Notes: generated by a model not told the origin, from the letters alone. A stretch of 45,121 nt of DNA from Acetobacteraceae bacterium (GCA_030037175.1 JASHRV010000036.1:1-45121); one strand, 5' to 3'; positions 4,705 through 25,116 are shown, numbered from the stretch's first letter. Numbers and translations are program-made.

Positions 4705-5964
4705 ATGCAGCCTCTGGCCCGTCCGGCCGCCGGACGCAAGGTGGAGCCCGGCAGCCAGGAGGAGCCCCCCGGTCGCCGGGTGGGGGAAGTTCTTCTCGCC
4801 TTCCTCCGCCTCGGCTGCACGAGCTTCGGCGGCCCGATCGCCCATCTCGGCTTTTTCCGGGCCGAATTCGTGACGCGCCGGCGCTGGCTCGGCGAGAGCG
4901 AATACGCCGACATCGTAGCGCTCTGCCAATCCCTGCCCGGCCCGGCGAGCAGCCAGGTGGCAGCCAGCATCGGGTTGATGCGGGCGGGCCTGCCCGGCCT
5001 GTTTGCCGCCTGGACCGGCTTCACCCTGCCTTCGGCCGCGCTGCTGATCCTCTTCGCCTACGTGACCGACCGGATCGGCGGGCTTGCCGGCGCGCCCTGG
5101 CTGCACGGACTCAAGATCGTCGCCGTTGCCGTCGTCGCGCAGGCGCTCTGGGGCATGGCCCGCGCCCTTTGCCCGGACCGGATGCGCATCACGATCGCGA
5201 TCGCCATGGCCATGCTGACACTTGCCGTGCCCTCGGCGCCCGGCCAGGTCGGCGCCATCGTCCTTGGCGGGCTCATCGGCTGGCGCTGGATCCGCGACCC
5301 GCCCAAGCCTGCCCCGGAAGCGGGCGGCGGCGAGATCAGATTTTCGCTTCCCCATCCGCTCGCCCTAAGCGCGCTGGTCGCCTTCCCTGCCCTGCTCGTC
5401 TGCCTGCCGCTGGCGGCGGGAACAAGCGGCAGCCACGTGGTGGCGCTGATCTCGCGATTCTATCGCGCCGGCGCCCTCGTCTTCGGCGGCGGCCATGTCG
5501 TGCTGCCGCTGCTGCAGCAGGCGGTCGTTCCGCCAGGCTGGATCAGCAACAATCTTTTCCTCGCCGGCTATGGCGCGGCGCAGGCAGTGCCGGGCCCGCT
5601 CTTCACCTTCGCCGCCTATCTCGGCACGGCGATGGAGCCGGGCCCGAATGGCTGGCTGGGCGGCCTCATCTGCCTCGTTTCCATCTATCTCCCTTCGTTT
5701 CTCCTCCTTATCGGTGTGCTGCCTTTCTGGGACCGGCTCCGGCGAGCGGTCGCCGTGCAATCGGCGCTGCGCGGGGTCAATGCCGCCGTGGTCGGCCTGC
5801 TGCTCACAGCGCTCTACACGCCGGTATGGACCAGCGCGATCGCAACGCGCGCTGATTTCGCAATCGGAATCGCGGCTTTCCTTCTCCTTGCCTTCTGGCG
5901 CACCCCGCCCTGGCTCGTCGTGCTGCTCGGAGCCCTCGCCGCGCAGGCCCTGGCGGCGCTTTAG
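4705..5964 (+). CDS. chrA: Chromate transporter (two-domain ChrA type)
   Basis: LAFLRLGCTSFGGPIAHLGFFRAEFV…LCQSLPGPASSQVAASIG and the duplicated half RAGALVFGGGHVVLPLL…GYGAAQAVPGPLFTFAAYLG. Confidence 0.92.
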   Translation: MQPLARPAAGRKVEPGSQEEPPGRRVGEVLLAFLRLGCTSFGGPIAHLGFFRAEFVTRRRWLGESEYADIVALCQSLPGPASSQVAASIGLMRAGLPGLFAAWTGFTLPSAALLILFAYVTDRIGGLAGAPWLHGLKIVAVAVVAQALWGMARALCPDRMRITIAIAMAMLTLAVPSAPGQVGAIVLGGLIGWRWIRDPPKPAPEAGGGEIRFSLPHPLALSALVAFPALLVCLPLAAGTSGSHVVALISRFYRAGALVFGGGHVVLPLLQQAVVPPGWISNNLFLAGYGAAQAVPGPLFTFAAYLGTAMEPGPNGWLGGLICLVSIYLPSFLLLIGVLPFWDRLRRAVAVQSALRGVNAAVVGLLLTALYTPVWTSAIATRADFAIGIAAFLLLAFWRTPPWLVVLLGALAAQALAAL

Positions 5965-7118
5965 CTTTCGCTCGATTCGTGGACGATGACGCCCTGAAGC
6001 GGGCTCAGGTCGGTGTGCCACGGCTTCTCCCGCAGCACACGCGCGGCATGGGCATAGCCCGCGTCCCAACGGGCGCGCACGGTCGCGGGGCTGAAATCGA
6101 TGTCCTTCGTTTGGTCCTCCCCGTCGCGACCGGGCGCGAGAAGGCGGACGAGATGCATCGTCGTCGCGCAGCCATAGCTCGCGAGCTCGGCGACGATCGG
6201 GTCCTTCGCCTGCTCCTTCGGCAATAAGGCCGCAAGCTGGCGCACGACGTGTCGCAATTGATGGATCTGCTCCTGCCGGGCGATATGGCTGCTGGCGCGG
6301 CTTGCGTACTGGATATCCTTCTGGCGGCCCATGACCTGCCACACCGAGAGCGGCTCGGCACCACGCGGCTGCCACATATTGACGGTGAAGATCAGTGAGT
6401 TGCGCCGCGGACGATCGTCCAGAACCACCTCGACCGGCGTATTGGAGTAGATCCCGCCATCCCAGTAGAGCTCTGCGCCGATCCGCACCGCGGGAAAGGC
6501 CGGCGGCAGCGCGCCGGAAGCCATCACATGCTCGAGGGTGAGATGCTCGTCCCGGCTGTCGAAGTAGCGCATCTCGCCGCTGAGCACGTTGACGGCACCG
6601 ACAGTGAGGCGCGTCCTCTTTCCATCCAGCTCGACAAAATCGATCAGCCTGCCGAGCGTTTGCCGCAACGGCTCGGTCGTGTAGAAGGCGGCGCGCTCGA
6701 CCCCGACCGCCTGATGGATATTCCACGATGTTGCTTGTGGCCGGAAGAAGCCGGGAACGCCGAAGGTCATTGCCGCGGCGATCCCGAACGCGGAGCCCAA
6801 CCATCCGCCGTGCCAGGAGGGATCGATCGTGAAGCTGCTGCTGACATCATCCCAGAAGGCGCGAAGCCGTGAAATGCGCGATTTCGGTTCGTTGCCGGCG
6901 ATGATCGCGCCATTGATGGCACCGATCGAGGTGCCGACCACCCAATCAGGCTCGATGCCCGCTTCGCTCAGGCCCTGATAGACCCCGGCCTGGTACGCAC
7001 CGAGCGCACCGCCGCCCTGCAGGACGAGCACGATCTGCCCGACCGGCCGCTCGATGCCATGGGCGGCCTCGCCACTCGCGCCGAGATCAGGTGCGTTGCG
7101 CATGGTCTCCGTCATCAT
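5961..7118 (-). CDS. Patatin-like phospholipase family protein
   Basis: Oxyanion loop GGGALGAYQAG, GTSIGAING (GXSXG) and DGGIYSNTPVE (catalytic DGG). Confidence 0.9.
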   Translation of the reverse strand: MMTETMRNAPDLGASGEAAHGIERPVGQIVLVLQGGGALGAYQAGVYQGLSEAGIEPDWVVGTSIGAINGAIIAGNEPKSRISRLRAFWDDVSSSFTIDPSWHGGWLGSAFGIAAAMTFGVPGFFRPQATSWNIHQAVGVERAAFYTTEPLRQTLGRLIDFVELDGKRTRLTVGAVNVLSGEMRYFDSRDEHLTLEHVMASGALPPAFPAVRIGAELYWDGGIYSNTPVEVVLDDRPRRNSLIFTVNMWQPRGAEPLSVWQVMGRQKDIQYASRASSHIARQEQIHQLRHVVRQLAALLPKEQAKDPIVAELASYGCATTMHLVRLLAPGRDGEDQTKDIDFSPATVRARWDAGYAHAARVLREKPWHTDLSPLQGVIVHESSES

Positions 7119-7272
7119 CGGGCCGCTCCCGTCATGGGTCTCTCTTCCGCCGGCGACAGGCCCATGCTCTAGCGCGGCGCCTGCGGCGGATCATCGCGAT
7201 CCGCTAACGTTTTCATCACGGCGCTCGCCGTCCGCGTGATGAAGATGTGACGAGTTCTTGAGAGGAGGGTGA

Positions 7273-7764
7273 TTGCCAAGCGGCAGCATGGCGATGGCCG
7301 GGCCACTCCGGGAAGAGGAGAGCGTATTGAGCCTGAGATCAGCGATGCTGTCGGCGATCGGCGTAGCGGAGGGCATTCCCTCTTCGGTGCTTGGGTTGGT
7401 GATAAGATGCGGCATCGCGGACGTGTTCTGGCGGTCCGGGCAGACGAAGGTATCCGGCTGGCAGGTCACGCCCACCACCATCCTGCTCTTCCGCGACGAA
7501 TACAAAGTTCCGCTGCTGCCGCCGGCGCTCGCGGCGAACATGGCGGCGCTGGCGGAGCATCTTTTCCCCGTCCTGCTGGTGATCGGACTGGCCTCGCGTC
7601 TTTCGGCGCTTGGCCTGATGGGAATGACAGCGGTCATCGAGATCTTCGTCTATCCCGAGAACTGGCCGGATCATCTGCTTTGGGCGGGATGTCTCCTCTA
7701 CGTGCTCGCGCGCGGGCCTGGGAAGCTCTCGCTCGACGGCGTGATTCGCTGGCGTTTCGGGTAA
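7273..7764 (+). CDS. DoxX family membrane protein
   Basis: 163 aa: LGLVIRCGIADVFWRSGQTKVSGW…FRDEYKVPLLPPALAANMAALAEHLFPVLLVIGLASRLSALGLMGMTAVIEIFVYP. Likely TTG start at 7273 or ATG at 7288. Confidence 0.82.
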   Translation: MPSGSMAMAGPLREEESVLSLRSAMLSAIGVAEGIPSSVLGLVIRCGIADVFWRSGQTKVSGWQVTPTTILLFRDEYKVPLLPPALAANMAALAEHLFPVLLVIGLASRLSALGLMGMTAVIEIFVYPENWPDHLLWAGCLLYVLARGPGKLSLDGVIRWRFG

Positions 7765-9890
7765 TGGAGCTTCTGCAAAGACGGCTTGGTCCGGCCTTTG
7801 CGCTGCTCGGCGCCGGATTGCGGCAACTCGCGCCCTTCGTCGATCTCTGGGTGCGGTTATCGCTTGCGCAGGTCTTCTTCGTTTCCGGCATGCTCAAGCT
7901 CACCCATTGGCAGGATGCGCTTCGTCTCGCCCGCTACGAATATCCCGTGAGCTGGCTCGATCCGCACTCAGCGGCGGTGCTCGGCGTCGGGATCGAGGTG
8001 GCGGGGCCCGTGCTGCTCGCGCTCGGGCTTTTGGTGCGGCCGGCGGCACTGGCGATGCTGCTTCTTTCGCTCGTAATCCAAATCTCCTACCAGCAACTGG
8101 ACGTCAATCTCTTCTGGATCGCCCTCTCCGGCTGGTACCTCGTGCACGGACCGGGTGCACTTTCGTTTGATCGCGCCCTCGCCCAAGGTCTGGCCACGAG
8201 CGCCGTCCCGCTGGCCGCGCCCGCCGTCGCGGCGGGTGCCTGGACCGAGCGCATAGTCGGCCCGTTCTACAGGCTGGCGCTGCGGCTCTGGCTCGCCTTG
8301 GCGCTTGCCGGCTTCGCCTTGCCGGCCGTGCTTTTCCCGGTAACGACATGCGCTACCCTTCCGCGGCTGCTCGCGTGGATCGCCGCCACGCTGCTTGCGC
8401 TTGGGCTTGGAACATCTCTGATCGCCGGCGTGCTGCTAATAGCTTTCTCCGGGATCTGGGCCATGGTGCCGGCGGACGGAGTGACGATCTTCGCCCCTCT
8501 GCTCTTCGCACTGCTCGGCATCGGCGGTGCGGGACGATTCTCGCTCGATGCTCCATTGCGCCGCGCCGTGGAAAAACGCCGATCCCCGCGCGGCGACGAG
8601 CCGCACATCGTCATTGTCGGTGCGGGATTCGCCGGCATGGCCTGCGCGGCTGGGCTGAGGCACGCGCGCGCCCGGGTCACCCTTGTCGATCGGCGGAACT
8701 ACCATCTGTTTCAGCCTCTTCTCTATCAGGTGGCGACCGCGAGCCTTTCGCCCGGCGACATCGCTGCGCCCATCCGTGCCGTCTTTCGCGAGGACGCACG
8801 AATTACCGTCCTTTGCGGCACCGTCTCCGCTGTCGATCCCTCGCGGCGGATGGTGCGCGTCGATGGCAACGAGCTCGCATACGACTATCTGGTGCTCGCG
8901 ACCGGAGCCAGCCACGGCTATTTCGGCAATGAGCATTGGGCGCGATATGCGCCCGGACTCAAAGTGATCGAAGACGCTGTCTCCATTCGCGGCCGTATCC
9001 TGGCCGCCTTCGAACGTGCCGAGGCGAGCCCGGATTCGCGCGAGCGTGCGAAGCTGCTCACCCTTCTCATTTGCGGCGGCGGCCCGACCGGGGTCGAGCT
9101 CGCGGGGGCCATCGCGGAGCTGGCCCGCCACGGACTCACACGCGAATTCCGCCGCTTCGACCCGGCCTCGGCGCGCGTAATCCTGGTGCAGGCGGGCCCC
9201 CGGCTCCTACCTGCCTTTCCCGAGAAACTCTCCATGCGCGCGCGGCTTTCACTCGAGCAGCTGGGCGTGGAAGTTTGGCTCGACAGCCGAGTCGAGGCGG
9301 TCGATCACGAAGGCGCGGTGGTGAATGGAAAGCGCATCGCTGCGGGGATCGTGCTCTGGGCCGCGGGCGTGGTCGCGTCACCGGCGGCATCATGGCTCGG
9401 TCAGCAGCCTGATCCGGCCGGACGTTTGCCGGTCGCGGCCGATCTCTCCGTGCCGGGACTGCCGGACGTCTTCGCAATCGGCGACACCGCCCTCGCCCGC
9501 GCATGGAAAGGCGCGCCGGTGCCGGGCCTCGCCTCGGCCGCCAAGCAGGAGGGCGCCTATGTCGCTGCCGTGCTGCGGGCGCGGCTGAGCTTCTCGCGCG
9601 CACCCCCTCCGTTCCGCTATCGCCATCACGGCAGCCTCGCCACGATTGGAAGAAAGAGCGCGGTGGCCGATTTCGGCTGGATAACGCTCCGCGGTACGCT
9701 AGCGTGGTGGCTATGGGGGGCCGTTCATATTCTTTTTCTCGTCGGACTCAGAAACCGGCTTTCGGTGATCGTAGGCTGGCTTTGGTCCTACCTCACCTAT
9801 CGCGTCGGCGTGCAGCTGATCACAGGCGACGCATCGCGTTCCTATTTCGCAGCTCCGCTTAGCGCTGATCAGGGAGACTCGGCAAAATGA
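7764..9890 (+). CDS. DoxX-like membrane domain fused to type II NADH dehydrogenase (NDH-2)
   Basis: ATG overlaps the upstream stop (TAATG). About 270 aa of DoxX-like and extra membrane segments (LAQVFFVSGMLKLTHWQDALRLARYEYPVSWLDP…), then FAD motif IVIVGAGFAGMACAAGL, RNYHLFQPLLYQVATASLSPGDIAAPIR, NAD motif LICGGGPTGVELAGAIAEL and NDH-2-type hydrophobic C-terminus. Confidence 0.88.
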   Translation: MELLQRRLGPAFALLGAGLRQLAPFVDLWVRLSLAQVFFVSGMLKLTHWQDALRLARYEYPVSWLDPHSAAVLGVGIEVAGPVLLALGLLVRPAALAMLLLSLVIQISYQQLDVNLFWIALSGWYLVHGPGALSFDRALAQGLATSAVPLAAPAVAAGAWTERIVGPFYRLALRLWLALALAGFALPAVLFPVTTCATLPRLLAWIAATLLALGLGTSLIAGVLLIAFSGIWAMVPADGVTIFAPLLFALLGIGGAGRFSLDAPLRRAVEKRRSPRGDEPHIVIVGAGFAGMACAAGLRHARARVTLVDRRNYHLFQPLLYQVATASLSPGDIAAPIRAVFREDARITVLCGTVSAVDPSRRMVRVDGNELAYDYLVLATGASHGYFGNEHWARYAPGLKVIEDAVSIRGRILAAFERAEASPDSRERAKLLTLLICGGGPTGVELAGAIAELARHGLTREFRRFDPASARVILVQAGPRLLPAFPEKLSMRARLSLEQLGVEVWLDSRVEAVDHEGAVVNGKRIAAGIVLWAAGVVASPAASWLGQQPDPAGRLPVAADLSVPGLPDVFAIGDTALARAWKGAPVPGLASAAKQEGAYVAAVLRARLSFSRAPPPFRYRHHGSLATIGRKSAVADFGWITLRGTLAWWLWGAVHILFLVGLRNRLSVIVGWLWSYLTYRVGVQLITGDASRSYFAAPLSADQGDSAK

Positions 9891-10612
9891 CCTACAAAGT
9901 TCTGGTCATAGAAGATCACCGGGAAATCGCCGAACTGGTCAAGCTTCATCTCAAGGACATTGATTGCCGGGTGAAGCTCGCCTTCGATGGCCCCTCGGGC
10001 CTTGCCGATGCCGAGGCAAACAAGTACGATCTCATCATTCTCGATCTCATGCTGCCGGGTGAGAGCGGACTTGAGATCTGCCGCCGCCTGCGGGGCCGCG
10101 GCGACTACACGCCAATTCTGATGCTCACATCGCGCTCCACCGAGCTCGATCGCGTTCTCGGGCTTGAAATGGGCGCCGACGACTATCTGACGAAACCTTT
10201 CAGCGTCATGGAGCTGCTCGCGCGGGTCAAGGCTATCTTCCGGCGCGTCAAGGCAATCACGACCGGCAGCGTGAATGCGACCACGGTCGTGCGTGTGGGC
10301 GATATGACGATCGATGCCGATCAGCGTTCCGTGGCGGTGCGCGGAAGATCCGTCGAGCTCACAGCCCGGGAATTCGATCTTCTTCTCCATCTCGCGCGCA
10401 ATCCCGGGCGGGTCTATACGCGCGAACAGCTCCTGGATTTCGTCTGGGGATACAATCACAGCGGCTACCAGCACACGGTGAACTCGCATATCAACCGGCT
10501 TCGCAGCAAGATCGAGGACGATCCTGCAAACCCTGTCTATGTCCGCACGGTATGGGGCGTGGGCTATAAATTCTCCGAGGCCATCGGCAACGCCGCGGGA
10601 CGCAATCCCTAA
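9887..10612 (+). CDS. OmpR/PhoB-family response regulator
   Basis: Receiver LIILDLMLPGESG and TKPFSVMELLAR; winged-helix LTAREFDLLLHLARNPGRVYTREQLLDFVWGY…YVRTVWGVGYKF. ATGA overlap with the NDH-2 fusion gene. Confidence 0.95.
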   Translation: MTYKVLVIEDHREIAELVKLHLKDIDCRVKLAFDGPSGLADAEANKYDLIILDLMLPGESGLEICRRLRGRGDYTPILMLTSRSTELDRVLGLEMGADDYLTKPFSVMELLARVKAIFRRVKAITTGSVNATTVVRVGDMTIDADQRSVAVRGRSVELTAREFDLLLHLARNPGRVYTREQLLDFVWGYNHSGYQHTVNSHINRLRSKIEDDPANPVYVRTVWGVGYKFSEAIGNAAGRNP

Positions 10613-10616
10613 ACCT

Positions 10617-12092
10617 GTGAAAACCCTGCACGGCAAGCTCTTTCTCCTCGTCGCGCTGCTTGTCTTCGCGCTCGGCGCGCTCGCACTTTTCCTTCAGGCG
10701 CGCTCATTCCGGAGCTACGAACTCGCGATGACCCAGGCGTTGAACGAAAGTCTCGCACGAAGTCTGGTGGACGAATATTTTTCAGATTTCGCCTCTCGGC
10801 CCGAGACTGGACGCAACATTGAAGCGAAGTTCCATCGGCTGATGACCGTCAATCCCGATATCGAGCTTTATCTCGTCACGCCGAACGGCCGGCTCACTGC
10901 GTACACGGCACCGCCGAGCGAGATTCGACGACAACGGATCGATGTCCGTCCGCTTGTAGAGTTCCTCTCTGGACGCTCCGCCTTTCCCGCCTTTGCCGAC
11001 GACCCGAAGAGCCCAGGCCGGCAGAAGATTTTCTCGGCGGCCTGGCTCGACCCCGAGAGGCACGAATCGGGGTTTCTCTATGTCATCCTCGGTGGCGCTG
11101 AATATGACGCGGTCGCGCACCGATTCCAGGGCGGGTTCCTTCTGCATGGCGCCTTGACCGTGCTCGGGATCGGAGTCGTGGCAGCGCTGATCGCGGCGTT
11201 CTTCGTGCTGACGACTCTGACCGCCCGTCTGCGCCGGCTCGCGCGCTCAATGGATGCATTTCGGGCAAGCCAGTTCCGCGAGCCTGTCCCGGTCTCGGTC
11301 ACCGCAGAGTCCGGCGGTGATGAACTCGATCGATTGGCCCGCACCTATAACGGAATGGTCGTCCATATCCAGATGCAGATAGAGGAAATCGCCAGAACCA
11401 ACGCGGCGCGGCGCGAGCTGATCGCCAGCGTCTCACACGACCTGCGCACACCTTTGGCATCTTTGCGCGGCTATCTCGAAACGCTGGTGATGAAAGAGAA
11501 CCTGCCGGCGCAGGACCGCCGCGCCTATCTCGAGATCGCGTTTCGCCAGAGCGAGACTTTGAACCGCCTGATCGAGGAGCTGTTCGAGCTCGCGAAGCTC
11601 GAGGAGATCGAAGCCCGCATTGCCAAGGAGCCGCTGCAGCTTTCCGAGCTCGTTCAGGACGTGCTGCAGAAATTCAGGCTCGTGGCGCAGCAGAAGAAAA
11701 TCGCTCTCGAAGGAGAATTCATGCCGGCGGCCCCGCTCGTCCAAGGCGATGTCGCCACGCTCGAGCGGATGCTCGACAACCTGCTCGAGAACGCCATTCG
11801 TCATACGGACACGGGTGGACGGATCATCGTCAGCGTCGCGATGCAAGCAGGCCAGGTACGGCTCGAAGTAGCCGACACCGGCAGCGGCATTCCTGCCGAA
11901 GACCTCCCACATATCTTCGAGCGCTTCTATCGCGTGGACAGGGCACGCAATGCCGGCGCGAGCGGGTCGGGGCTCGGCCTTGCTATCGCCAAGCGGATCG
12001 TCGAGCTGCACGGAGGCACCATATCGGTCCGGAGCGAACTCGGCATCGGCACCTGCCTCATTGTTGATCTGCCGATCATTCCGCCTGCATGA
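10617..12092 (+). CDS. Sensor histidine kinase (HAMP, HisKA, HATPase)
   Basis: GTG start 4 bp after the regulator stop; H-box ASVSHDLRTPLASLRGYLE; N box LLENAIRHTD; DTGSGIPAEDLPHIFERFYR; SGSGLGLAIAKRIVELHGG. Confidence 0.93.
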   Translation: MKTLHGKLFLLVALLVFALGALALFLQARSFRSYELAMTQALNESLARSLVDEYFSDFASRPETGRNIEAKFHRLMTVNPDIELYLVTPNGRLTAYTAPPSEIRRQRIDVRPLVEFLSGRSAFPAFADDPKSPGRQKIFSAAWLDPERHESGFLYVILGGAEYDAVAHRFQGGFLLHGALTVLGIGVVAALIAAFFVLTTLTARLRRLARSMDAFRASQFREPVPVSVTAESGGDELDRLARTYNGMVVHIQMQIEEIARTNAARRELIASVSHDLRTPLASLRGYLETLVMKENLPAQDRRAYLEIAFRQSETLNRLIEELFELAKLEEIEARIAKEPLQLSELVQDVLQKFRLVAQQKKIALEGEFMPAAPLVQGDVATLERMLDNLLENAIRHTDTGGRIIVSVAMQAGQVRLEVADTGSGIPAEDLPHIFERFYRVDRARNAGASGSGLGLAIAKRIVELHGGTISVRSELGIGTCLIVDLPIIPPA

Positions 12093-12105
12093 CGCTTTCC
12101 GCGGG

Positions 12106-12873
12106 TCAAGGAGTTTCGCGAAGGCCGACGATAAGCCCTTCGGCGAAAAGAGCGGCGAGCGCGCCCGGCAGATCGAAAGCGGGGTCGACTGCGAGCGCCG
12201 CCCCGGCCGCTTGGCCGAGCCTGGCGCCATCTGCGATCGCTGCGCGGAGGATCCAGCTTGCTTCCGGGAGGCGGGCGATGAAAAGCCCGTCGGCACCACG
12301 AACCTGGAGGTGGACGGCGCCGGTGTCGATGGTGATCGTTTCGGGAACAGAACCGGGCCGGTGTTGCTGCCAGATGACATCAACCGGATAGGCCGAACGA
12401 AGGAATCGTGTTGCTGGGTCCACCGCCAGAGGCCGCTCGGCGGGATCGCCGGCAAGCCCGGCGAGGGTCGCGAGCGGAATCGGCCGGCCGCGCTCGGCGC
12501 GGATGACGCGCCCTATGGCCCATTCCAGTTTTGCGACATCGCCGAGATAGGGAAGACCGGCGCAGGCAGGGAAGGACGCAAGGAACTCAGGAAACGTGGC
12601 GCCGTATTCCGAAAGGCAGGGTTCAGCTGGCAGATTGTCGCGAATGAAGCTGTTGGCAGCGTAGGAAAAGAACCGCGGCCCGGTGAGCGCGCATGCAATA
12701 GGAAACGAGGCCATCAGCGCCGCTTCGAGCGTGATCAGCGCATTGTTGCGATAGATCGCAAGCCGCGCCGCGGGGGCCAGCCCGTCGTGTTCGATCAATT
12801 CGGCGAGAGCATCAGGCGGACCGCCACGAATGAAGCTGCAAACAGCGGACTGCACCTCAGAAAGCTTCGGCAT
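12106..12873 (-). CDS. bufC: DUF2063-like protein (BufC-type partner of a DUF692 enzyme)
   Basis: 255 aa MPKLSEVQSAVCSFIRGGP…LAIYRNNALITLEAALMASFPIACALTGPRFFSYAANSFIRDNLPAEPCLSEYGATFPEFLASFP; start overlaps the DUF692 gene by 17 bp. Confidence 0.86.
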   Translation of the reverse strand: MPKLSEVQSAVCSFIRGGPPDALAELIEHDGLAPAARLAIYRNNALITLEAALMASFPIACALTGPRFFSYAANSFIRDNLPAEPCLSEYGATFPEFLASFPACAGLPYLGDVAKLEWAIGRVIRAERGRPIPLATLAGLAGDPAERPLAVDPATRFLRSAYPVDVIWQQHRPGSVPETITIDTGAVHLQVRGADGLFIARLPEASWILRAAIADGARLGQAAGAALAVDPAFDLPGALAALFAEGLIVGLRETP

Positions 12874-13744
12874 CGCACCACCCATCGGCGCCCGCCAGAA
12901 CGTCCCGCGCCTTGGAGGCTTCTTCCAGCAAAACATCGAGCGGCGGCAGGTCCGCATCCCATTCGATAAGCGTCGGCGGTGCGCCGAGACGCTTCGCGCC
13001 ATCGGCGAAAAGCGCCCAGACATCGTCAGGAACGCGCGAGGCGTGATCGTCGATGAGGATGGTGCGATCACCGACGCGCCTGACGGTATGGCCAGCGAGA
13101 TGGATCTCGCCCACGGAAGCAGCCGGCAATGCGTCAAGATACGCAATCGGATCGATATCGATATTGCCGGCGCTGACATGGATGTTGGAAACGTCGCAGA
13201 GCAGGCCGCATCCGGTCCGCTGGACCATTTCGGCGAGGAATTCCGGCTCGTCCATCGTCGCGTGACGGAAGCGAAGGTACCGCGCCGGGTTTTCGACCAA
13301 AATCGTCCGCCCCAGCGCTTCCTGCGTTTGATGGATGTGCGCCGACACGATACCCAATGTCTCCTCCGTGTAGGGCAGTGGCAACAGATCGTTGAGATGC
13401 GCACCCTCGGTCGCGGTCCAGGCCAGGTGCTCGGAGACGAGAAAGGGATCGAGACGATCGACCAACGATTTCAACCGGAGGAGATGGTCCTTGTCGATGG
13501 GTCCGGCGCTACCGAGGGAAAGGGCGACCCCATGCAGCGATAACGGATAATGCGCCCGCACGGCGGTGAGCGATGCGAGCGCAGCGGCATGGTGCATGTA
13601 ATTCTCTGGATGCACCTCGAGCCAGTCGATGTCCGGACGGCGCGCCAGTATTTCGCCGATGTGAGCGGAGCGGAGCCCGAGGCCCACGCTCGAGGGGTGT
13701 CGCTCGTGGCGCGCGGTACGTGGCGGTGCCGTCCGGACTGTCAT
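12857..13744 (-). CDS. bufB: DUF692 multinuclear non-heme iron oxidative enzyme (MNIO, BufB-type)
   Basis: VGLGLRSAHIGEILARRPDIDWLEVHPENYM…YPLSLHGVALSLGSA…LVSEHLAWT…ILVENPARYL…LLCDVSNIHVSAGN…EIHLAGHTVR: canonical DUF692 metal-ligand motifs. Confidence 0.93.
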   Translation of the reverse strand: MTVRTAPPRTARHERHPSSVGLGLRSAHIGEILARRPDIDWLEVHPENYMHHAAALASLTAVRAHYPLSLHGVALSLGSAGPIDKDHLLRLKSLVDRLDPFLVSEHLAWTATEGAHLNDLLPLPYTEETLGIVSAHIHQTQEALGRTILVENPARYLRFRHATMDEPEFLAEMVQRTGCGLLCDVSNIHVSAGNIDIDPIAYLDALPAASVGEIHLAGHTVRRVGDRTILIDDHASRVPDDVWALFADGAKRLGAPPTLIEWDADLPPLDVLLEEASKARDVLAGADGWCDAEAF

Positions 13745-13789
13745 GGCAATGCTCCTGCGGGATCGGTCAGGTTTGCGGCTGAACCGGCG

Positions 13790-14071
13790 TCAGCGTCCGC
13801 TGCCCGTCTGGTTGATGGCGCTGGGCTGGAGGCTTCCGCCGATGATCCTGGCGCAGGTTCCGGCTGGGACGTAAAGCCACGACTGCGGATCTCCCGCGCG
13901 GGTGCTTTGTCCGGCGCAGGAATGGGTTGCGGTCTGGCAGTCGTTCGCGTGCGCCGCGGCAATCCCGTAGCACCTGTCATAGTGAAAAGACGGCACGGGC
14001 GCGGGTGCGGCGATTGCCGGCACCGCTGCGGCAGTCATCAAGGCCGTGGCCACGAGGCGGGAGACGTTCAT
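13790..14071 (-). CDS. bufA1: DUF2282 bufferin-type RiPP precursor with signal peptide
   Basis: 93 aa: signal MNVSRLVATALMTAAAVPAIAA then RCYGIAAAHANDCQTATHSCAGQSTRAGDPQSWLYVPAGTCARIIGGSLQ, four Cys in DUF2282 spacing; 45 bp upstream of the DUF692 gene. Confidence 0.92.
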   Translation of the reverse strand: MNVSRLVATALMTAAAVPAIAAPAPVPSFHYDRCYGIAAAHANDCQTATHSCAGQSTRAGDPQSWLYVPAGTCARIIGGSLQPSAINQTGSGR

Positions 14072-14271
14072 CGGACTTCCTTTCCATGCTGCAATCGCTG
14101 CCCCGGCCAGACCGGGGCTCGCGCTTGTCGCTCACCGCTTGTTGCGGAACGACATGGAACGGATAGCAGCGCGAAAATGAGGATCGGTGTCGATCCGATC
14201 ACGTTTCTATCACGCGCTCAGCCGCCTCCGGTTGAAAGGCGCGAGGCGGCTTGCCCGAAGACGAGCCCCGC

Positions 14272-14619
14272 TTATTTGCAGTCAGTCAGGCTCGCGTCGC
14301 GGATCTCGAAGCTCATCTCCTTGGTCAGGTTGACGCCGTGCAGGAGGCAGGTTCGTCCATTCTTATCGACCAGCTTCACGTCGTAGATCCCGGGATTCAA
14401 ACCCGTCAGCGTCAGACGCTCGCCGAAATCCAGCTCCTTGTCGTCGTCGTTCAGCGCCTGATTCGGCCCCCATTGGGTGCCGCCGGCCGGCGCCAGATAG
14501 ACGCCGGTGAAAGTCGTCGTCGCCGTCAGGTTGTACGCGAAGTAATTCGGCGCCGCTGCGGCCGAGATACCGCCCGCCAACAGCACGGCAGCGCAAACCG
14601 AAAATGCCGGGAGCCTCAT
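14272..14619 (-). CDS. Small secreted/periplasmic protein of unknown function
   Basis: MRLPAFSVCAAVLLAGGISAAAA signal peptide, then NYFAYNLTATTTFTGVYLAPAGGTQWGPNQALNDDDKELDFGERLTLTGLNPGIYDVKLVDKNGRTCLLHGVNLTKEMSFEIRDASLTDCK. Confidence 0.7.
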   Translation of the reverse strand: MRLPAFSVCAAVLLAGGISAAAAPNYFAYNLTATTTFTGVYLAPAGGTQWGPNQALNDDDKELDFGERLTLTGLNPGIYDVKLVDKNGRTCLLHGVNLTKEMSFEIRDASLTDCK

Positions 14620-14733
14620 CGACCTTCCTCCTCGTTCTCTGTTTGGCGGCCAGATTACCGCTCGGAAAACGAAATGGAAACTGCCTTGGATCCGTTCGTC
14701 AGCCGGCAGGGCCGCGTCCCCCGGCTCCATCAC

Positions 14734-16084: not shown

Positions 16085-19000
16085 CTAACCGGCGCTCGAC
16101 CACGCCACGACCTGCTGCTCGACGAGCCGAGCATAGGCGCCATGGCGGGTCAGCAGCTCGGCATGGGTGCCGCCCTCAAGCACCCTCCCATGATCGAGCA
16201 CGAGGATGCGGTCTGCCGCGCGGATCGTAGAAAGCCTGTGCGCGATGATGAGCGTGGTCCGCCCGCGCATCAGCTCCGCCAATGCCATCCGCACCTCGGC
16301 CTCGCTGATCGTGTCGAGATGCGATGTCGCTTCGTCGAGCACCAGCACCGGCGCATCCTTGAGGAAGGCGCGCGCGATCGCGATGCGTTGGCGCTGCCCG
16401 CCCGAAAGCTGCACCCCGCGCTCTCCCACGCGCGTCGCGAGCCCGTCCGGCAGCCCTGCGACGAACGGCCCGAGCGCTGCCTGCTCGAGCGCAGCACCCA
16501 CCGCCGCCTCCGGTGCATCGGGTCGCGCCAGCCGGATGTTGGCCTCGAGCGTGTCGTTGAAAAGATAGGTGTCCTGGGCCACGAGCGCTATTCGGCGCCG
16601 GAGCGCATCGAGCCGGAACTCGCGAAGATCACATCCATCGAGGCGTACAGCACCTTCATCGGGGTCCCAGAAACGCAGCAGCAGGTTTGCGATCGTGCTC
16701 TTGCCCGCGCCTGAGGAACCGACGAGCGCCACCGTCGTTCCCGCCGACACGGTGAAGGAAACATCGGAGAGTGCCGGCTGCGTCCGCCCGGGATAGGTGA
16801 AGCGGACATCCTCGAACCGGATTTCCGAGCCGCCGGCTCCAGGCGGCGGATCGGCCGGCCCGTCGAGGATCGTCACGGGCTCCCGCCCGACCGCCGCCAG
16901 CCGCCGGCTCGCGGAAAACGTGTCGGCGAGCTGGCGCCCGACCTGGGCGATCTCCGAAACCGGCAGAAAGGCCGCGATCGCGACCAGCACGAGCAACGGC
17001 AGCATTCCCGCCGCCAACCGATGATCGGCGACGAGGCCGGCCCCAAGCACCGCCACTGCGAGTCCGCCGCCGCTGGTCGCCGCCTCGAGCCAGGCCGCCT
17101 GGCGTGAAAGATCGGCGAGCAGCTTGAGCCGGACTGCGCCATACTCCCGCGCCGTGGCCAGAAATGTCTGCCGCCGCCGCCCCACCGCACGGAAGGCGAG
17201 CAAATCAGCAAGCCCCTGGATCGTCTCGGTCACATGCGCACCGAGCAGTCCGAGCGCGTCCCGCGCCTCCGCGCCCAGCCGATCGATCCGGCGCCGCCCG
17301 GCCAGCGGCGAGAGCAAGGCGTAGCCGAGGAACGGCAAGAGCACGAGTGCCAGCGGCCAACCGAACCCCGCAAGCAGCCCGAGTACGGAGAGCGGCACCA
17401 GCACGGCCACGACCGCCGGCGCGACGGTGTGGGCGTAGAAATACTCGATCGTTTCCACGTCCTGCGTCGCGAGTGCCACGAGGTCGCCCGAGCGCCGCCG
17501 CAGCAGATAGGCGGGCGCAAGCCGCTCCAGCACGGCAAAGAGGTCGATCCGCATCTCCGCAAGCAGCTCGTAGGCCATCTCATGCGCGAGCGTCGATTCG
17601 AGCCAGTGGCAAAGCGCGGTGATCGGCGCAGCCGCGAGCAGCAGCCCGATCGGCACGAAGATGGGCCCGTGCACGCGCACCGCGGCGATGACGAGAGCGC
17701 CCAGCGCGCTCACCCCTATGAAGGAGGCGACGCGTCCGATCTCGAGCAGCACCGTCGCCGTCAGGGTCCCCCGCCAAGGCCTGATGAAGCCGAGCAGCGT
17801 CTTCAGCGTCTCGGCCCCGCTGACACCAGCCGCCTCCTCGTCGAGCGACCTTTTCTGTCCCACGTCCGAAGCCTCAGCAGACTCGGCGTGCTTGCCCTGA
17901 CCGGCGCGCTCAGCCTCGGCTCCGCGCGCCGGATGGTCGAGCACCGCACTTTCCTCTGCCTGGGCACCCATCAACCGCCGGTAGAGTCCGTCCGCCCGCA
18001 TCAGCGCGGCATGCGTGCCCTCCTCCACCACCCGCCCGCTCGAGAGAACGAGGATGCGGTCTGCCGCGATCACGCTCGAAAGTCGATGGGCCAGGATCAA
18101 TGTCGTGCGCCCCTCCATCAGCCGCTCCAGCGCCTGCTGGATGGCTGCCTCGTTCTCCGCATCGACCGATGAAAGCGCCTCGTCGAGAATGAGGATCGGC
18201 GCATCGAGCAGCAGGGCGCGGGCGATTGCGATCCGTTGCCTTTGCCCGCCCGACAGCCCCGCCCCGCGCTCGCCGATCCGCGTCTCGTACCCCTCCGGCA
18301 AGGCGAGGATGAACTCGTGCGCGTTCGCCGCCCGCGTGGCTTCCTCGATCTCTGCCCGCCCCGCCTCCGGCCGTCCGAGCCGGAGGTTCTCCGCCACTGT
18401 CCCCTCGAACAGCACCGGATCCTGCGCGACCACCGCGATCGAGGCGCGCAGCGCCTCCGCGTCCAGGATGCGGAGATCCCTCCCGCCGAACAGGATCCGC
18501 CCCGAGCAGGGGTCATATTCGCGGAGCAGGAGCCGCACGATGGAGGACTTTCCCGCTCCGCTCGGTCCGACAATCCCGACGCGCTCACCTGCCGCGACCC
18601 GGAACGAGAGCCCGTTATGCGCCGGCCCCCTCCCACCCGGATAGGCAAAGCGGACCTCCTCGAACGCGATGCTGGGCTGAAGCCCGGCCGCCGCCGCGCT
18701 TCCCGACGCGGGCAGCGAGGGCTTTGCCTCGAGGAGAGAAAAAATCCCGGCCGCTGCCGACTGTCCGAGAAGCCCCTGATGCAGCACGGTGCGGAGATCC
18801 CGCAACGGGCGGAAAATTTCCGTCCCGGCCATCAGCACGATCAGCAGCGCCGCGAGGCTCATCTGGCCGTGCGTCACCCGCCAGGCGCCGAGCGCCAGCG
18901 CTGCAGCAGCGCCGAGCGCGGTGCCGAGATCGGTGATCGCGCGGGTAAGGATGCTGGCACCGAGCACCCAGAACGTGTTCCTTGCCAGCGCATGGGCATG

Positions 19001-19669
19001 CTCGGCGAGCCGTGCCGCCCAGGCGCTGCTCTGGCCGAAGGCTTTCAGCGTCGGCAGGCCTTGCACGGCATCGAGGAACTCCTCGCCGAATGATTTGAGA
19101 GCGTGTGCACGATCAAGGCTGGCGCGCCGCTCGCGCATATGCACCGCCATCGGGCCAATCAGGGACAGGAGCGCACCGGCCAGCAGCACGGCGGCAACGG
19201 GCACATCCCAGATTGCCGCGAAGGCAAAAATGGCGAAGGGAGCGGCAATCGCGATCACGAGCTGAGGCAGGTACTGGCCGAACCAGGTCTGGAGCTGCTC
19301 GACCCCATCCACCATTGACAGCATCACCCCGCCCGTCCGGCTGCCTGAGAACCAGGCTGGCCCGAGCGTCACGATCCTGTCGAAGAGCCTTTCCCTGAGC
19401 CGCTCCTGAACGCGCACGGCGGTTCCATGGGCGATGCGAGCGCGCGCCTCCTCGAGCCCGGCCCTGATCACGATCATGGCCCCGGCCGCGAGCGCGAGCA
19501 GGATCTCCGCCCGCCCGCTGCCGCCGCGGAAGACGAGGGCGAGGAGCGTTCCGAGGAAGGCGAAGCGAGCGATGCCGGCGGCGAGCGCGAAGAGCCCAAG
19601 TCCCACCGCGAGCGCGATGCGCCCGCGTACGCCGCACGTCAGCCGCCAAAGACGTATGTCGAAATACAC
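16085..19669 (-). CDS. Fused double ABC exporter (two TMD-NBD modules), CydDC-like
   Basis: Two complete modules: GPSGAGKSS/LSGGQRQR/LILDEALSS and GSSGAGKST/LSGGQRQR/LVLDEATSH. First half has CydD-like YLPQLVIAIAAPFAIFAF and FLDAVQGLPTLKAFGQS. Likely GTG start (VYFDIRLWRLTC…) near 19669; the track start at 19876 would translate the 11-bp repeats. Confidence 0.85.
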   Translation of the reverse strand: MYFDIRLWRLTCGVRGRIALAVGLGLFALAAGIARFAFLGTLLALVFRGGSGRAEILLALAAGAMIVIRAGLEEARARIAHGTAVRVQERLRERLFDRIVTLGPAWFSGSRTGGVMLSMVDGVEQLQTWFGQYLPQLVIAIAAPFAIFAFAAIWDVPVAAVLLAGALLSLIGPMAVHMRERRASLDRAHALKSFGEEFLDAVQGLPTLKAFGQSSAWAARLAEHAHALARNTFWVLGASILTRAITDLGTALGAAAALALGAWRVTHGQMSLAALLIVLMAGTEIFRPLRDLRTVLHQGLLGQSAAAGIFSLLEAKPSLPASGSAAAAGLQPSIAFEEVRFAYPGGRGPAHNGLSFRVAAGERVGIVGPSGAGKSSIVRLLLREYDPCSGRILFGGRDLRILDAEALRASIAVVAQDPVLFEGTVAENLRLGRPEAGRAEIEEATRAANAHEFILALPEGYETRIGERGAGLSGGQRQRIAIARALLLDAPILILDEALSSVDAENEAAIQQALERLMEGRTTLILAHRLSSVIAADRILVLSSGRVVEEGTHAALMRADGLYRRLMGAQAEESAVLDHPARGAEAERAGQGKHAESAEASDVGQKRSLDEEAAGVSGAETLKTLLGFIRPWRGTLTATVLLEIGRVASFIGVSALGALVIAAVRVHGPIFVPIGLLLAAAPITALCHWLESTLAHEMAYELLAEMRIDLFAVLERLAPAYLLRRRSGDLVALATQDVETIEYFYAHTVAPAVVAVLVPLSVLGLLAGFGWPLALVLLPFLGYALLSPLAGRRRIDRLGAEARDALGLLGAHVTETIQGLADLLAFRAVGRRRQTFLATAREYGAVRLKLLADLSRQAAWLEAATSGGGLAVAVLGAGLVADHRLAAGMLPLLVLVAIAAFLPVSEIAQVGRQLADTFSASRRLAAVGREPVTILDGPADPPPGAGGSEIRFEDVRFTYPGRTQPALSDVSFTVSAGTTVALVGSSGAGKSTIANLLLRFWDPDEGAVRLDGCDLREFRLDALRRRIALVAQDTYLFNDTLEANIRLARPDAPEAAVGAALEQAALGPFVAGLPDGLATRVGERGVQLSGGQRQRIAIARAFLKDAPVLVLDEATSHLDTISEAEVRMALAELMRGRTTLIIAHRLSTIRAADRILVLDHGRVLEGGTHAELLTRHGAYARLVEQQVVAWSSAG

Positions 19670-19724
19670 GACGTGATCTTCCGGCAAGCCGCCGCATTTG
19701 GAAACCGGCGCCTTGCGGGCCGTT

Positions 19725-19768
19725 CCCCCTGTGGCCCCCCTGTGGCCCCCCTGTGGCCCCCCCTGTGG
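19725..19768. repeat. 11-bp tandem repeat (TGTGGCCCCCC, about four TGTGG units) in a divergent promoter region
   Basis: TGTGG at 19730, 19741, 19752 and 19764, preceded by C-tracts of 5, 6, 6 and 7. Confidence 0.9.
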
Positions 19769-19814
19769 ACCGTCCCGTTGAGCGGCGCGGGCGCGGCTGA
19801 TACGCAGGCCTGCC

Positions 19815-21581
19815 GTGCCAGCCCCATCCTCGCCCCATCGGAATCGGCGATTGCTCGACAGGCGGCTGACCGCCATCGCCCGCCCGGCAAGGGCGGGCCT
19901 CTATGTCGCGATAGGTCTTGGGCTTGCCGGCGGTCTGCTCGTCATCCTCCAGGCTCTCCTGCTGGCTCGCATCGTCAACGGCGCCGTGTTCCGGCATGGC
20001 CCGGTGCCAGCGGGCCTTCTGCTTGCGCTCTTCGTCCTCTTTGTCTTGCGCGCGGCTCTGACCTTCCTCTCCGAAATCGCCGCACACCACGCCGCCGCAT
20101 CGGTCAAGACAGAGCTCAGGCGCGCCTTGATGAAGCGAATCGTTGAGCTCGGCCCCGCCTACACCGTGGGCGAAGGCAGCGCCGATCTTGCCACCACCCT
20201 GACCGACGGCGTCGAGGCGCTCGAGCCCTATCTTGCCCGCTACCTGCCGCAGATGGCGCTCGTGGCGCTCGTGCCGCTTGCGATCCTCGCCACTCTCTTC
20301 CCGATCGATTGGATGAGCGGGCTCGTGCTTGCCGTGAGCGGGCCGCTCATCCCGCTCTTCATGGTCTTCGTCGGCCACCAGGCCGAGGCGATCAACCAGC
20401 GCCAGTGGCGCCAGCTCCTGGCGATGAGCGCGCACATGCTCGATGCGATCCAGGGAATCACGACGTTGAAGCTTTTCGGCCGCGCGCGCGACGAGATCGC
20501 GCTGATCGCACGAATTTCCGACGATTACCGGCGCACCACCATGGCAAGCCTCCGGGTCGCCTTCCTCACCTCGGCGGTGCTCGAGTTCTTCGCCTCCCTC
20601 GCGATCGCGCTGGTTGCCGTCATCTTTGGCGCGCGGCTGCTGCACGGCCACGCCAATTTCTTCGCTGCCTTCCTGGTTCTTCTTCTCGTCCCCGAGTTTT
20701 TTCTCCCGCTGCGCAACCTCGCCACCCACTACCATGCGCGGATGAGCGCGCTCGCCGCTGCCCAGCGGATCTTCGAGGTTCTGGACGCCCCTGTTGCCCA
20801 GGTTTCCGGCATCGCCATTCCCCCGAAGGGCGCGGTCACGATCCTGTGCCGGGCGCTCGAGGCCGGCCATGAGCCGGGCCGGACGGTTCTGCGCGGGCTC
20901 GATTGCGAATTTCCGGCGGGGCTCGCGACTGCGATCGTCGGCCGTTCAGGAGCCGGAAAATCGAGCCTCGCCGCGGCGATCGTTGGCTTCATCGCGCCCA
21001 GCGCAGGGACGATCCTGATCGACGGCGTTCCGCTCTCAGTACTCGACCGCGAGGCCTGGTGGCGGCAGCTCGCTTACGTTCCACAGGCGCCGCGGACCTT
21101 TGCCGGCACAGTTGCCGAGAATCTCCGTCTCGCCCGGCCCGAGGCCGACGAGGCGAGCCTGCGCGAAGCCTGCCGCCGCGCCCTGCTGCTCGACGTGATT
21201 GACTCCCTGCCGCAAGGTCTTTCGACCCGGCTCGGCGAAGGCGGCATCGGCCTCTCAGGCGGCGAGATCCAGCGCCTCGCACTCGCCCGCGCCTTCCTCA
21301 AGGATGCCCCGCTCCTGATTCTTGACGAGGCCACCGCCCACCTCGACCTCGAAACCGAGGCCCTGGTCGCGGAGGCGATCGCCGATCTCGCGCGCGGCCG
21401 CACGGCCATTCTCATTGCCCATCGCCTCGCCACCGTCAGGCGCGCCGACCGGATCGTCGTGATGGAGGACGGACGCGTCGCCGAATACGGCACGCATGAA
21501 GCCCTTGTCGCTTGCGGCGGCGCCTACGCCGCTCTGCTCCGGGGCGCTGCCGCCCCGACAGAGACCCCATGCGTGCGCTGA
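19815..21581 (+). CDS. cydD: Thiol reductant ABC exporter subunit CydD
   Basis: ARYLPQMALVALVPLAILATLF…FMVFVGHQAEAINQRQWRQLLAMSAHMLDAIQGITTLKLFGRA; Walker A GRSGAGKSS; LSGGEIQRLALARAFLKDAPLLILDEATAHLD. Confidence 0.92.
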   Translation: MPAPSSPHRNRRLLDRRLTAIARPARAGLYVAIGLGLAGGLLVILQALLLARIVNGAVFRHGPVPAGLLLALFVLFVLRAALTFLSEIAAHHAAASVKTELRRALMKRIVELGPAYTVGEGSADLATTLTDGVEALEPYLARYLPQMALVALVPLAILATLFPIDWMSGLVLAVSGPLIPLFMVFVGHQAEAINQRQWRQLLAMSAHMLDAIQGITTLKLFGRARDEIALIARISDDYRRTTMASLRVAFLTSAVLEFFASLAIALVAVIFGARLLHGHANFFAAFLVLLLVPEFFLPLRNLATHYHARMSALAAAQRIFEVLDAPVAQVSGIAIPPKGAVTILCRALEAGHEPGRTVLRGLDCEFPAGLATAIVGRSGAGKSSLAAAIVGFIAPSAGTILIDGVPLSVLDREAWWRQLAYVPQAPRTFAGTVAENLRLARPEADEASLREACRRALLLDVIDSLPQGLSTRLGEGGIGLSGGEIQRLALARAFLKDAPLLILDEATAHLDLETEALVAEAIADLARGRTAILIAHRLATVRRADRIVVMEDGRVAEYGTHEALVACGGAYAALLRGAAAPTETPCVR

Positions 21582-23323
21582 TCCGGCTTCTCCGCCTCTA
21601 CGGGCCCTACCGCGCCTGGATAGCCAGCGGGCTTCTGCTTGCGCTCGCGACCATCCTTGCCAATTTCGGGCTGCTGGCGCTGGCCGGCTGGTTCCTCGCC
21701 ACAGCGGGCCTGGTCGGTCTTGGCGGGTATGCAGCGCAAAATGCGTTCAACTTCTTCACTCCGGCCGCCGGCGTGCGCTTCTTCGCCACGGTGCGCGTGC
21801 TCGGCCGCTATGCCGGGCGGATCGTCGATCACGAAGCCGCCTTGCGCCAGCTCGCCCGTCTGCGCGTCTTTCTCTTCGAAAAGCTCGAGCCGCTCGCCCC
21901 GGCCGCCCTCGCCGCGGAGCGGAGCGGCGATCTTCTTTCCCGTCTGGTGGCCGATATCGACCGGCTGGGTGATGTCTATCTGCGCGTCCTGGCCCCCTTT
22001 GCCGTTGCCGTCGCGGCGGCGCTGGCCATGGCCGGCACCCTCGCCATTTTTGTCCCGCTCGCGGGCCTCGCTCTGCTCGCGGGCCTTGCCCTTGCCGGCC
22101 TCGCCGTGCCGGCGGCGAGCCTCGCTCTGGGTGCCCGGGCGAGCCGCGAGGTCGTCACGACCCGCAACGAATTGCGCGCCGATGCCGTCGATGCCATCCA
22201 GGGCCTCGCCGAGCTTCTGACGTACAACGCCGCGCCAGCGGTGGCCGCCCGCATCGGTGACGCGAACGACCGGCTGATCGCGCGCGAGGCGCGGCTCGCT
22301 GCGATTGCCGGGCTTGGTGCAGGCGCGGGCCAGCTGATCGCCAATGCGACGATGGGCGCTGCACTCCTGATCGGGCTTGAGCTGGCCGGTGCCCACCACC
22401 TGCCCGGCGCCGACGTGCCGCTGCTGACGCTTGGCGCGCTTGCCGCCTTCGAGGCGGTGGCACCGCTGCCTCAAGCGTTCCAGCTTCTCGGCGGGATGGC
22501 AGAATCGGCGCGGCGCGTGTTCGCGATCGCGGATCGCGCCCCGCCGGTGCGTGAGCCCAAGCGAAGCCCGGCGCGGCCGCAGCACCTCGATATCGCGCTC
22601 TCGGGGGTGCGGCTGCGCTATGCACCGGAGGCGCCGTGGGCGCTCGACGGGCTCACGCTCACCATCCGGGAAGGCGAACATGTAACGATCCTCGGCCGCT
22701 CCGGTGCCGGGAAGACTTCGTTCATCAATCTCCTCCTGCGCTTCGTCGAATATGAGGAGGGCTCGGCCTCCCTTGGCGGAGTCGAATTACGAGCGATTCG
22801 CGGCGACGACGTGCGCAGCCTCTTCTCCGTGGTTTCCCAACGCACCCAACTCTTCGCCGGATCGATTCGCGATAATCTCCGGATCGCCCGGCCCGATGCC
22901 GATGACGCTTCGCTCTGGCGCGCGCTCGAGACGGCCGCGCTCTCCGAATTCGTGCGCGCGCGGTCCAGGGGCCTCGATTCACCGGTCGGCGAGGGCGCCG
23001 CGCGGCTCTCCGGCGGCGAGGCCCGCCGTCTCGCACTCGCCCGGGCCGCGCTGCGCGATGCGCCCTTCCTGGTGCTCGACGAGCCGACCGAGGGCCTCGA
23101 CCCTTTGACGGAAGCCGCCCTGCGTGGAGATCTCGGACGGCTCGCCGCAGGCCGGACGGTGATCAGCATCACCCATCGGCTTGCCTTCATCGCCCCGAAC
23201 GACCGCATCGTCGTCCTCGATTCCGGCCGCGTTGCCGAGGACGGCACGTTCGCAGTCCTCCGCACCGACGGACGGATCGTTCCCCGCCTCGCACGTCTTC
23301 AGGAAGATCTGGCCCGCATCTGA
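21569..23323 (+). CDS. cydC: Thiol reductant ABC exporter subunit CydC
   Basis: MRALIRLLRLYGPYRAWIASGLLLALATILANFGLLALAGWFLATAGLVGL…VRFFATVRVLGRYAGRIVDHEAALRQLARLRVFLFEKLEPLAPA; GRSGAGKTS; LSGGEARRLALARAAL. Overlaps cydD by 13 bp. Confidence 0.93.
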   Translation: MRALIRLLRLYGPYRAWIASGLLLALATILANFGLLALAGWFLATAGLVGLGGYAAQNAFNFFTPAAGVRFFATVRVLGRYAGRIVDHEAALRQLARLRVFLFEKLEPLAPAALAAERSGDLLSRLVADIDRLGDVYLRVLAPFAVAVAAALAMAGTLAIFVPLAGLALLAGLALAGLAVPAASLALGARASREVVTTRNELRADAVDAIQGLAELLTYNAAPAVAARIGDANDRLIAREARLAAIAGLGAGAGQLIANATMGAALLIGLELAGAHHLPGADVPLLTLGALAAFEAVAPLPQAFQLLGGMAESARRVFAIADRAPPVREPKRSPARPQHLDIALSGVRLRYAPEAPWALDGLTLTIREGEHVTILGRSGAGKTSFINLLLRFVEYEEGSASLGGVELRAIRGDDVRSLFSVVSQRTQLFAGSIRDNLRIARPDADDASLWRALETAALSEFVRARSRGLDSPVGEGAARLSGGEARRLALARAALRDAPFLVLDEPTEGLDPLTEAALRGDLGRLAAGRTVISITHRLAFIAPNDRIVVLDSGRVAEDGTFAVLRTDGRIVPRLARLQEDLARI

Positions 23324-23367
23324 AACGTTGGGAGAACAAACGGCACAGGTGCCGAGAGGCGCGGTCA

Positions 23368-23381
23368 CTGATATAAATCAA
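23368..23381 (+). promoter_or_regulatory. FNR/FixK-like box upstream of cydA
   Basis: CTGAT-ATAA-ATCAA, one mismatch from TTGAT-N4-ATCAA, about 100 bp before the cydA start. Confidence 0.6.
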
Positions 23382-23479
23382 GTCAATGCGTGAGGTGGCC
23401 CTGTAATGGGGATCACCGTTTCGGCCGAACGCGGGCGGGCGGAAGCCGCTCGTCATGCCATCGCCCGGAGGTCAACGCC

Positions 23480-25102: not shown

Positions 25103-25116
25103 GGAGGATTTCCGCG

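Follow-up and report, generated by a model that had tools for sequence, protein, structure and literature searches.

Does a respiratory gene set that runs head-on into a bufferin operon belong to it, or are the two merely neighbours? The question is raised by a 45,121-nucleotide contig of an Acetobacteraceae bacterium (GCA_030037175.1, JASHRV010000036.1:1-45121), the whole of which is called the window here. Four plus-strand genes, encoding a standalone DoxX protein, a rare fusion of DoxX to an NDH-2 (NADH:quinone oxidoreductase) domain, a response regulator and a sensor histidine kinase, converge on the minus-strand bufferin genes bufCBA. Bufferins are a peptide family known to sequester copper.

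Our results show a complete bufferin core divided over both strands, and an association of NDH-2 with bufferin genes that recurs in unrelated families. Both the anatomy and the recurrence are well supported. With slightly better than even confidence, we read the locus as a type-1 bufferin locus that has come apart into two convergent units under common control, in which a BufD-linked NDH-2 free of iron-sulphur (Fe-S) clusters is an accessory.

Bufferin core and fusion protein

Type-1 bufferin cores consist of a DUF2282 precursor, an MNIO maturase, a DUF2063 protein and a DoxX protein, with further conserved genes in extremely low proportions (PMC12452194). All four proteins are present in the window: a DUF2282 precursor with four cysteines, BufB, a DUF2063 protein and a BufD-type DoxX. 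The precursor BufA has a signal-like N-terminal stretch, with its cysteines at positions 34, 45, 52 and 73. It scores 29 against the 60-bit cut-off of BufA2, which agrees with Buf1 and not with Buf2. The NCBIfam models HvfX and HvfC stayed below their cut-offs.

The fourth core gene is found on the opposite strand. In a DoxX tree, based on a short alignment, the standalone DoxX falls in a clade of 37 rows (SH-aLRT 99), 35 of which have bufferin genes next to them. The most plausible reading is thus a BufD that has moved to the other strand, so that the plus-strand operon holds the missing bufferin gene. This bears out the first-pass annotation, made from the sequence alone, which had invoked the DoxX genes that accompany many bufferin operons. 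The same tree places the first DoxX domain of most fusions in a separate supported group beside the BufD proteins.

The two convergent units were confirmed by open reading frames (ORFs) and domain profiles (Table 1), and the gene order and close junctions described at the outset proved correct. The stop codon of doxX (TAA, 7762-7764) overlaps the ATG of the fusion gene at 7764 (TAATG), and the fusion stop at 9890 overlaps the regulator ATG at 9887 (ATGA). Only 4 bp separate the regulator stop at 10612 from the kinase GTG at 10617, and 13 bp lie between the kinase stop at 12092 and the last base of bufC at 12106. For the standalone DoxX, the start could be TTG 7273, which has a good Shine-Dalgarno sequence, or an ATG in the same frame, for example 7345. 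The start of bufC is probably ATG 12873, which, as read from the ORF, gives a 17-bp overlap with bufB.

The fusion of DoxX to NDH-2 is real, yet its single DoxX domain had to be corrected to two in tandem (residues ~23-150 and ~180-270). In an AlphaFold2 model (pLDDT 88.6, pTM 0.81), an NDH-2 fold comes after two helical modules of membrane type, and the top Foldseek match of the model is a mycobacterial NDH-2 (PDB 9mqy). Hallmarks of NDH-2 are GAGFAG, GGGPTGVE, YD at 373-374, GD at 573-574 and an NDH2_C domain of 43 bits. The quinone motif reads ASAAKQ (590-595), with APAAKQ as the consensus of the clade; accepted forms are AQxAxQ, AQxAxR and APxAxQ, the last being the form of 10% of NDH-2s (PMC5299459). 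Sequence and model thus point to a membrane-anchored, Fe-S-free NADH:quinone oxidoreductase, an activity that is predicted. Identity as a thiosulfate:quinone oxidoreductase (DoxD/DoxA) was rejected: DoxD scored 19.7 bits against a cut-off of 22.7, and no DoxA-type partner was present among the neighbour genes examined.

Table 1. Position and supporting evidence of genes and putative regulator sites in the window.
Feature	Position	Strand	Evidence or remark
Patatin-like phospholipase (Patatin + DUF3734), divergent neighbour	5961..7118	-	Pfam
Weaker third copy of putative site, CGTGATGAAAACGTTAG, facing divergent patatin gene	7204..7220	-	third-best matrix score in window; inverted-repeat arm
Putative regulator site CGTGATGAAGATGTGAC, ahead of doxX-ndh2-two-component operon	7235..7251	+	
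Standalone DoxX, BufD-type	7273..7764	+	PF07681, 59.2 bits; BufD clade placement
DoxX-DoxX-NDH-2 fusion, 708 aa	7764..9890	+	Pfam PF07681 (DoxX), Pyr_redox_2 + NDH2_C
OmpR/PhoB-type response regulator	9887..10612	+	Response_reg + Trans_reg_C
HAMP-type sensor histidine kinase, GTG start	10617..12092	+	HAMP, HisKA, HATPase_c
bufC, DUF2063 / PME type 1 partner protein	12106..12873	-	PF09836, 67.1 bits (cut-off 27.2)
bufB, MNIO bufferin maturase	12857..13744	-	NF050167, 362.9 bits (cut-off 310); PF05114
bufA, Buf1 precursor (DUF2282)	13790..14071	-	PF10048, 78.8 bits
Putative regulator site CGTGATAGAAACGTGAT, 127 bp upstream of bufA	14198..14214	-	

Recurrence of NDH-2 with bufferin genes and origin of the fusion

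Searches from the NDH-2 side, in several hundred genomes and public contigs, yielded 29 fusion-clade proteins. Seven of these, including that of the window, have bufferin genes within ~10 kb. The six others are from Azospirillum (L043), a Rhodospirillales metagenome-assembled genome (MAG; L046), Burkholderia sp. H160 (L050) and the loci L154, L156 and L157, the last with the precursor gene alone of the bufferin set. In Azospirillum brasilense, a culturable carrier, ~6 kb lie between fusion and bufferin. In L154 and L156 the genes bufA, bufB, bufC, doxX and DoxX-DoxX-NDH2 follow one another on one strand. The same run is found with an unfused NDH-2 in L171, and unfused NDH-2s of the same subfamily lie inside the bufferin loci L165, L171, L193, L078 and L104. 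In L165, a second, Pfam-negative protein (11406-12134, minus strand) that is weakly BufC-like lies inside the bufferin operon, between bufA and doxX.

From the bufferin side, we inspected 83 BufB loci, 80 around the BufB matches of a class-level genome sample and 3 others of the same sample. NDH-2 lies within 6 kb of BufB in four of them, from four different families. In a fifth (L215), bufABC-doxX is followed by DoxX-DoxX, which runs into the contig edge; the NDH-2 of this genome is on a separate short contig, with stops. Counting L215, 5/83 bufferin loci have an NDH-2 link, against ~0.05 expected from the density of the NDH-2 subfamily. This share of ~6% fits the extremely low proportions given for accessory genes in PMC12452194. 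Furthermore, BufB is present in all ten fusion genomes of the class sample that are at least 90% complete, compared to 126/318 overall (p=7e-5, genome size uncontrolled). Hence, the neighbourhood comparison that the first-pass annotation had proposed reveals co-occurrence in both search directions, well beyond the lineage of the window.

The fusion arose once, a conclusion well supported by the NDH-2 tree, in which all fusions form one clade (SH-aLRT 99). This clade also holds L048 and L049, which are apparently fused and received no label owing to a frame break or an incomplete domain. Sister to the fusions is the pair L165 and L193 (support 91); in both, NDH-2 immediately follows DoxX within a bufferin locus. 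Bufferin adjacency amounts to 9/31 in the fusion and sister group compared to 3/71 of the other NDH-2s (p=9e-4). Since the bufferin label changes seven times within the fusion and sister group, the linkage must have been gained or lost repeatedly.

Several observations weigh against a bufferin function of the enzyme. The p-value for adjacency weakens to 0.035 for the fusions alone and to 0.067 without the window, and 22/29 fusions have no bufferin within ~10 kb. Four near-complete genomes of the window's own family (G390, G405, G422, G322) have the fusion and lack BufB, and in G371, the closest relative, bufferin and fusion are on different contigs. A genome of the same genus (G003) has the fusion on a 10-kb contig without bufferin. 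In bufferin-free relatives (L149-L153) a conserved membrane protein precedes the fusion; in L151, the example tested, it is of DoxD type and separated from the fusion by a gap of a few bp. Other recurrent fusion neighbourhoods (L043, L045, L049, L148, L149) contain a glucosidase (5/5), an aquaporin (4/5) or a GMC oxidoreductase (2/5), and short-chain dehydrogenase (SDR) genes are also among the neighbours in this group. The link of the fusion to bufferin is not obligatory.

These neighbourhoods might be explained if the enzyme served more generally as a membrane module for NADH reoxidation, found in the company of several redox gene sets, and owed its position in the window to a shared stress regulon rather than to a direct role in bufferin function. 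The bufferin-free genomes, the DoxD-type gene of at least L151, the glucosidase, aquaporin, GMC and SDR neighbours, and the SDR and patatin genes of L104, L157 and L165 are all consistent with this explanation. It does not account for the bufferin enrichment in both search directions, nor for sister NDH-2s that sit inside bufferin loci behind a BufD-type DoxX. We consider it a serious alternative that is nonetheless rather unlikely.

Putative regulator sites, two-component system and surrounding genes

The window contains two matches, and only two, to the direct-repeat pattern YGTGAY-N5-YGTGAY, one in front of each operon. Not one shuffle gave two matches to the pattern. However, the pattern was derived from the two sites themselves, and a fairer test counts shuffled pairs that share an equally good repeat. 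Such a repeat was obtained in 8/400 shuffles. A perfect match lies in the intergenic region by the orthologous regulator of Methylocalor (L255), which belongs to another genus; the probability of this by chance is ~0.001-0.004. The common control of both operons implied by the first-pass annotation thus gains support from matching putative sites ahead of each and from the match at an orthologous regulator locus.

Besides the shuffled pairs, two observations argue against such control. The other orthologous loci did not show the repeat in this exact form; those of Burkholderia and Rahnella have a different common block containing TGTGA. The site at 7235 lies just 22 bp before the TTG start of DoxX, a spacing that suits activation only with a DoxX start farther downstream; failing that, the site would have to work in another way. 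Consensus sigma-70 promoters were not found at the two upstream regions. Altogether, co-regulation of the two operons is predicted with moderate support. A genome-wide regulon defined by the repeat was rejected, with 11 matches in 4.43 Mb, several of them within predicted genes. Another copy of the repeat lies upstream of a second patatin gene in this genome (L263).

If the two operons were chance convergent neighbours, their common motif would be a coincidence. The separate loci in G371 and the bufferin-free contig of G003 would then be expected. Yet the plus-strand operon contains a BufD-clade gene, the motif stands ahead of both operons, and the linkage is seen again in unrelated families as well as in Burkholderia, Azospirillum and Legionella (PMC5413113). 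Chance seems very improbable.

The regulator-kinase pair was found at none of the 83 bufferin loci, and a kinase orthologue in only 1/100 relatives at the threshold used. The full composition with kinase is accordingly a local variant, as it was not seen at other bufferin loci. The first-pass annotation knew of no described system with this full composition. In the mostly open-access literature searched, this holds for the kinase-bearing set, whereas for Legionella a DoxX 'NADH dehydrogenase' among bufferin homologues had already been noted in 2017, without follow-up (PMC5413113).

The suggestion that the kinase senses metal stress fared less well. Both proteins score under the cut-offs of the heavy-metal systems CopRS/CusRS (regulator, TIGR01387, 183.5 vs 279.2; kinase, TIGR01386, 180.7 vs 292.6), an identity that we rejected, and no characterised equivalog model matched the kinase above cut-off. 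Orthologous kinases on plasmid records are 35-41% identical over most of their length. In Burkholderia multivorans (L258) the pair adjoins msrA-dipZ-msrB, and in Rahnella (L257) it adjoins a set of MsrPQ-like cytochrome b, Mo-oxidoreductase and MXKDX-peptide genes. Neighbours of this methionine-sulfoxide-repair type occur at 2/6 annotated orthologous loci, with other genes at L255, L256, L272 and L273. The msr genes hint at an oxidant signal, which is suggestive only. Elsewhere, SigF of Caulobacter controls two bufferin sets, DoxX and YedY (PMC3511200), which is in line with the preferred reading, and RpoE2 of H. influenzae controls msrAB and a DoxX/UPF0276 cluster in the response to HOCl (PMC7907618).

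The divergent patatin-like phospholipase is possibly a further member of the system. Its homologues adjoin NDH-2 in L034, L104, L157 and L165, and patatin, often together with an SDR gene, recurs near NDH-2 and bufferin genes (window; L104, L157, L165). A chromate transporter gene (4705-5964, plus strand) lies two genes from the doxX operon. The gene immediately ahead of bufA, likewise on the minus strand, encodes a 153-aa signal-peptide-like protein without Pfam match (14272-14733). Further along, a 1263-aa ORF (16085-19876, minus strand) with two ABC_membrane and two ABC_tran stretches is apparently a fused exporter. A cytochrome bd oxidase set (19815-26504, plus strand), ~6 kb from the bufferin genes, comprises cydA, cydB, a YbgT-like small protein and two ABC exporter genes, which are CydDC-like by position; bd oxidase needs no copper. 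No RNA families or tRNAs were found in the window. Composition shifts only mildly along the contig, which makes a chimeric MAG somewhat less likely.

Proposed working and comparison with known systems

Under the preferred reading of a split, co-regulated bufferin locus, the kinase would sense envelope stress, an oxidant or copper, and the regulator would bind the GTGAT direct repeats ahead of both units, leading to their joint production. BufB and BufC would modify BufA, which, by analogy with the family, would be exported and chelate excess copper. BufD and the fused DoxX domains may together act as a base in the membrane and anchor NDH-2 on its cytoplasmic side. There, NDH-2 would move electrons from NADH to quinone without Fe-S clusters, keeping the quinone pool reduced while Fe-S enzymes are endangered. 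Via DoxX, it might also supply a periplasmic reductant (quinol, and hence thiols or Cu(II)). The signal and the electron route are those that we infer.

Alternatively, the enzyme might be a dedicated bufferin reductant, its DoxX domains passing electrons from NADH through the membrane and on to Cu(II), to give Cu(I), or to oxidised thiols, for the loading or repair of bufferin. For NDH-2 of E. coli, a Cu(II)-reductase activity and a benefit to growth under copper have been reported (PMC3817396), the latter of which also favours the preferred reading, DoxX of M. tuberculosis is cited in PMC7907618 as forming a thiol-oxidoreductase complex, and DoxX is N-terminal or 5' to NDH-2 across the whole fusion/sister clade. 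However, cupric reduction by NDH-2 has been disputed and later ascribed to unspecific quinols (PMC7558416), which counts against the preferred reading as well. Moreover, no CxxC or haem motif was seen in the fusion, whose only cysteines are at 196, 294, 351 and 437, and fusions exist without bufferin. Such a dedicated role appears improbable.

A bolder version of the preferred reading, which we advance only tentatively and think unlikely in full, is that BufD and NDH-2 make up a single complex in the membrane, its parts subsequently fused, through which electrons from NADH reach periplasmic copper chelation in a subset of bufferin systems, and that a two-component system related to oxidant repair has replaced SigF/NrsF here. 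A DoxX gene that stands before, and is then fused to, an NADH:quinone oxidoreductase is gene-fusion evidence that BufD-type proteins work with quinone-linked electron transfer. BufD-type DoxX is the least understood core bufferin gene, and the link to NDH-2 offers a testable lead and may connect copper chelation with respiration. Co-regulation, for its part, can be put to a direct test at the predicted regulator site.

The bufferin core and the Legionella DoxX 'NADH dehydrogenase' were already known. New here are the repeated association of NDH-2 with bufferin genes, the finding that the fusion arose once, and the two-component variant, of which no description was found in the mostly open-access literature searched.

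Among known systems, the closest are the type-1 bufferin clusters, such as the two sigF-controlled sets of Caulobacter, with which the window shares all four core proteins (PMC12452194). It differs in having bufD on the other strand, together with the NDH-2 fusion and a two-component system; NDH-2 is not among the core genes in the cluster descriptions (PMC12452194). Unlike in the Caulobacter sets, no SigF/NrsF adjoins the cluster in the stretch examined, which is not a required feature; the NrsF gene of this genome lies on another contig (C195). The H4 cluster of Legionella pneumophila (lpg0671-lpg0676) likewise places a DoxX-domain 'NADH dehydrogenase transmembrane protein' among bufferin (GIG) homologues, on mixed strands (PMC5413113). 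This likeness is by description, and H4 has acetoacetate decarboxylase and adenylate cyclase genes, with no two-component system mentioned. The regulators of the Burkholderia and Rahnella pairs are ~50-52% identical to that of the window, with a nearly identical recognition helix, but have other neighbour genes and the upstream block GTTAAATnAAwTGTGAT instead of the exact repeat. Finally, the enzyme is 43% identical to mycobacterial NDH-2 (9mqy) across the fold alignment and has the two GxGxxG motifs and NDH2_C in common with it, while it adds an N-terminal DoxX pair and, compared to known NDH-2s, has the quinone motif ASxAxQ, in a clade with the consensus APxAxQ.

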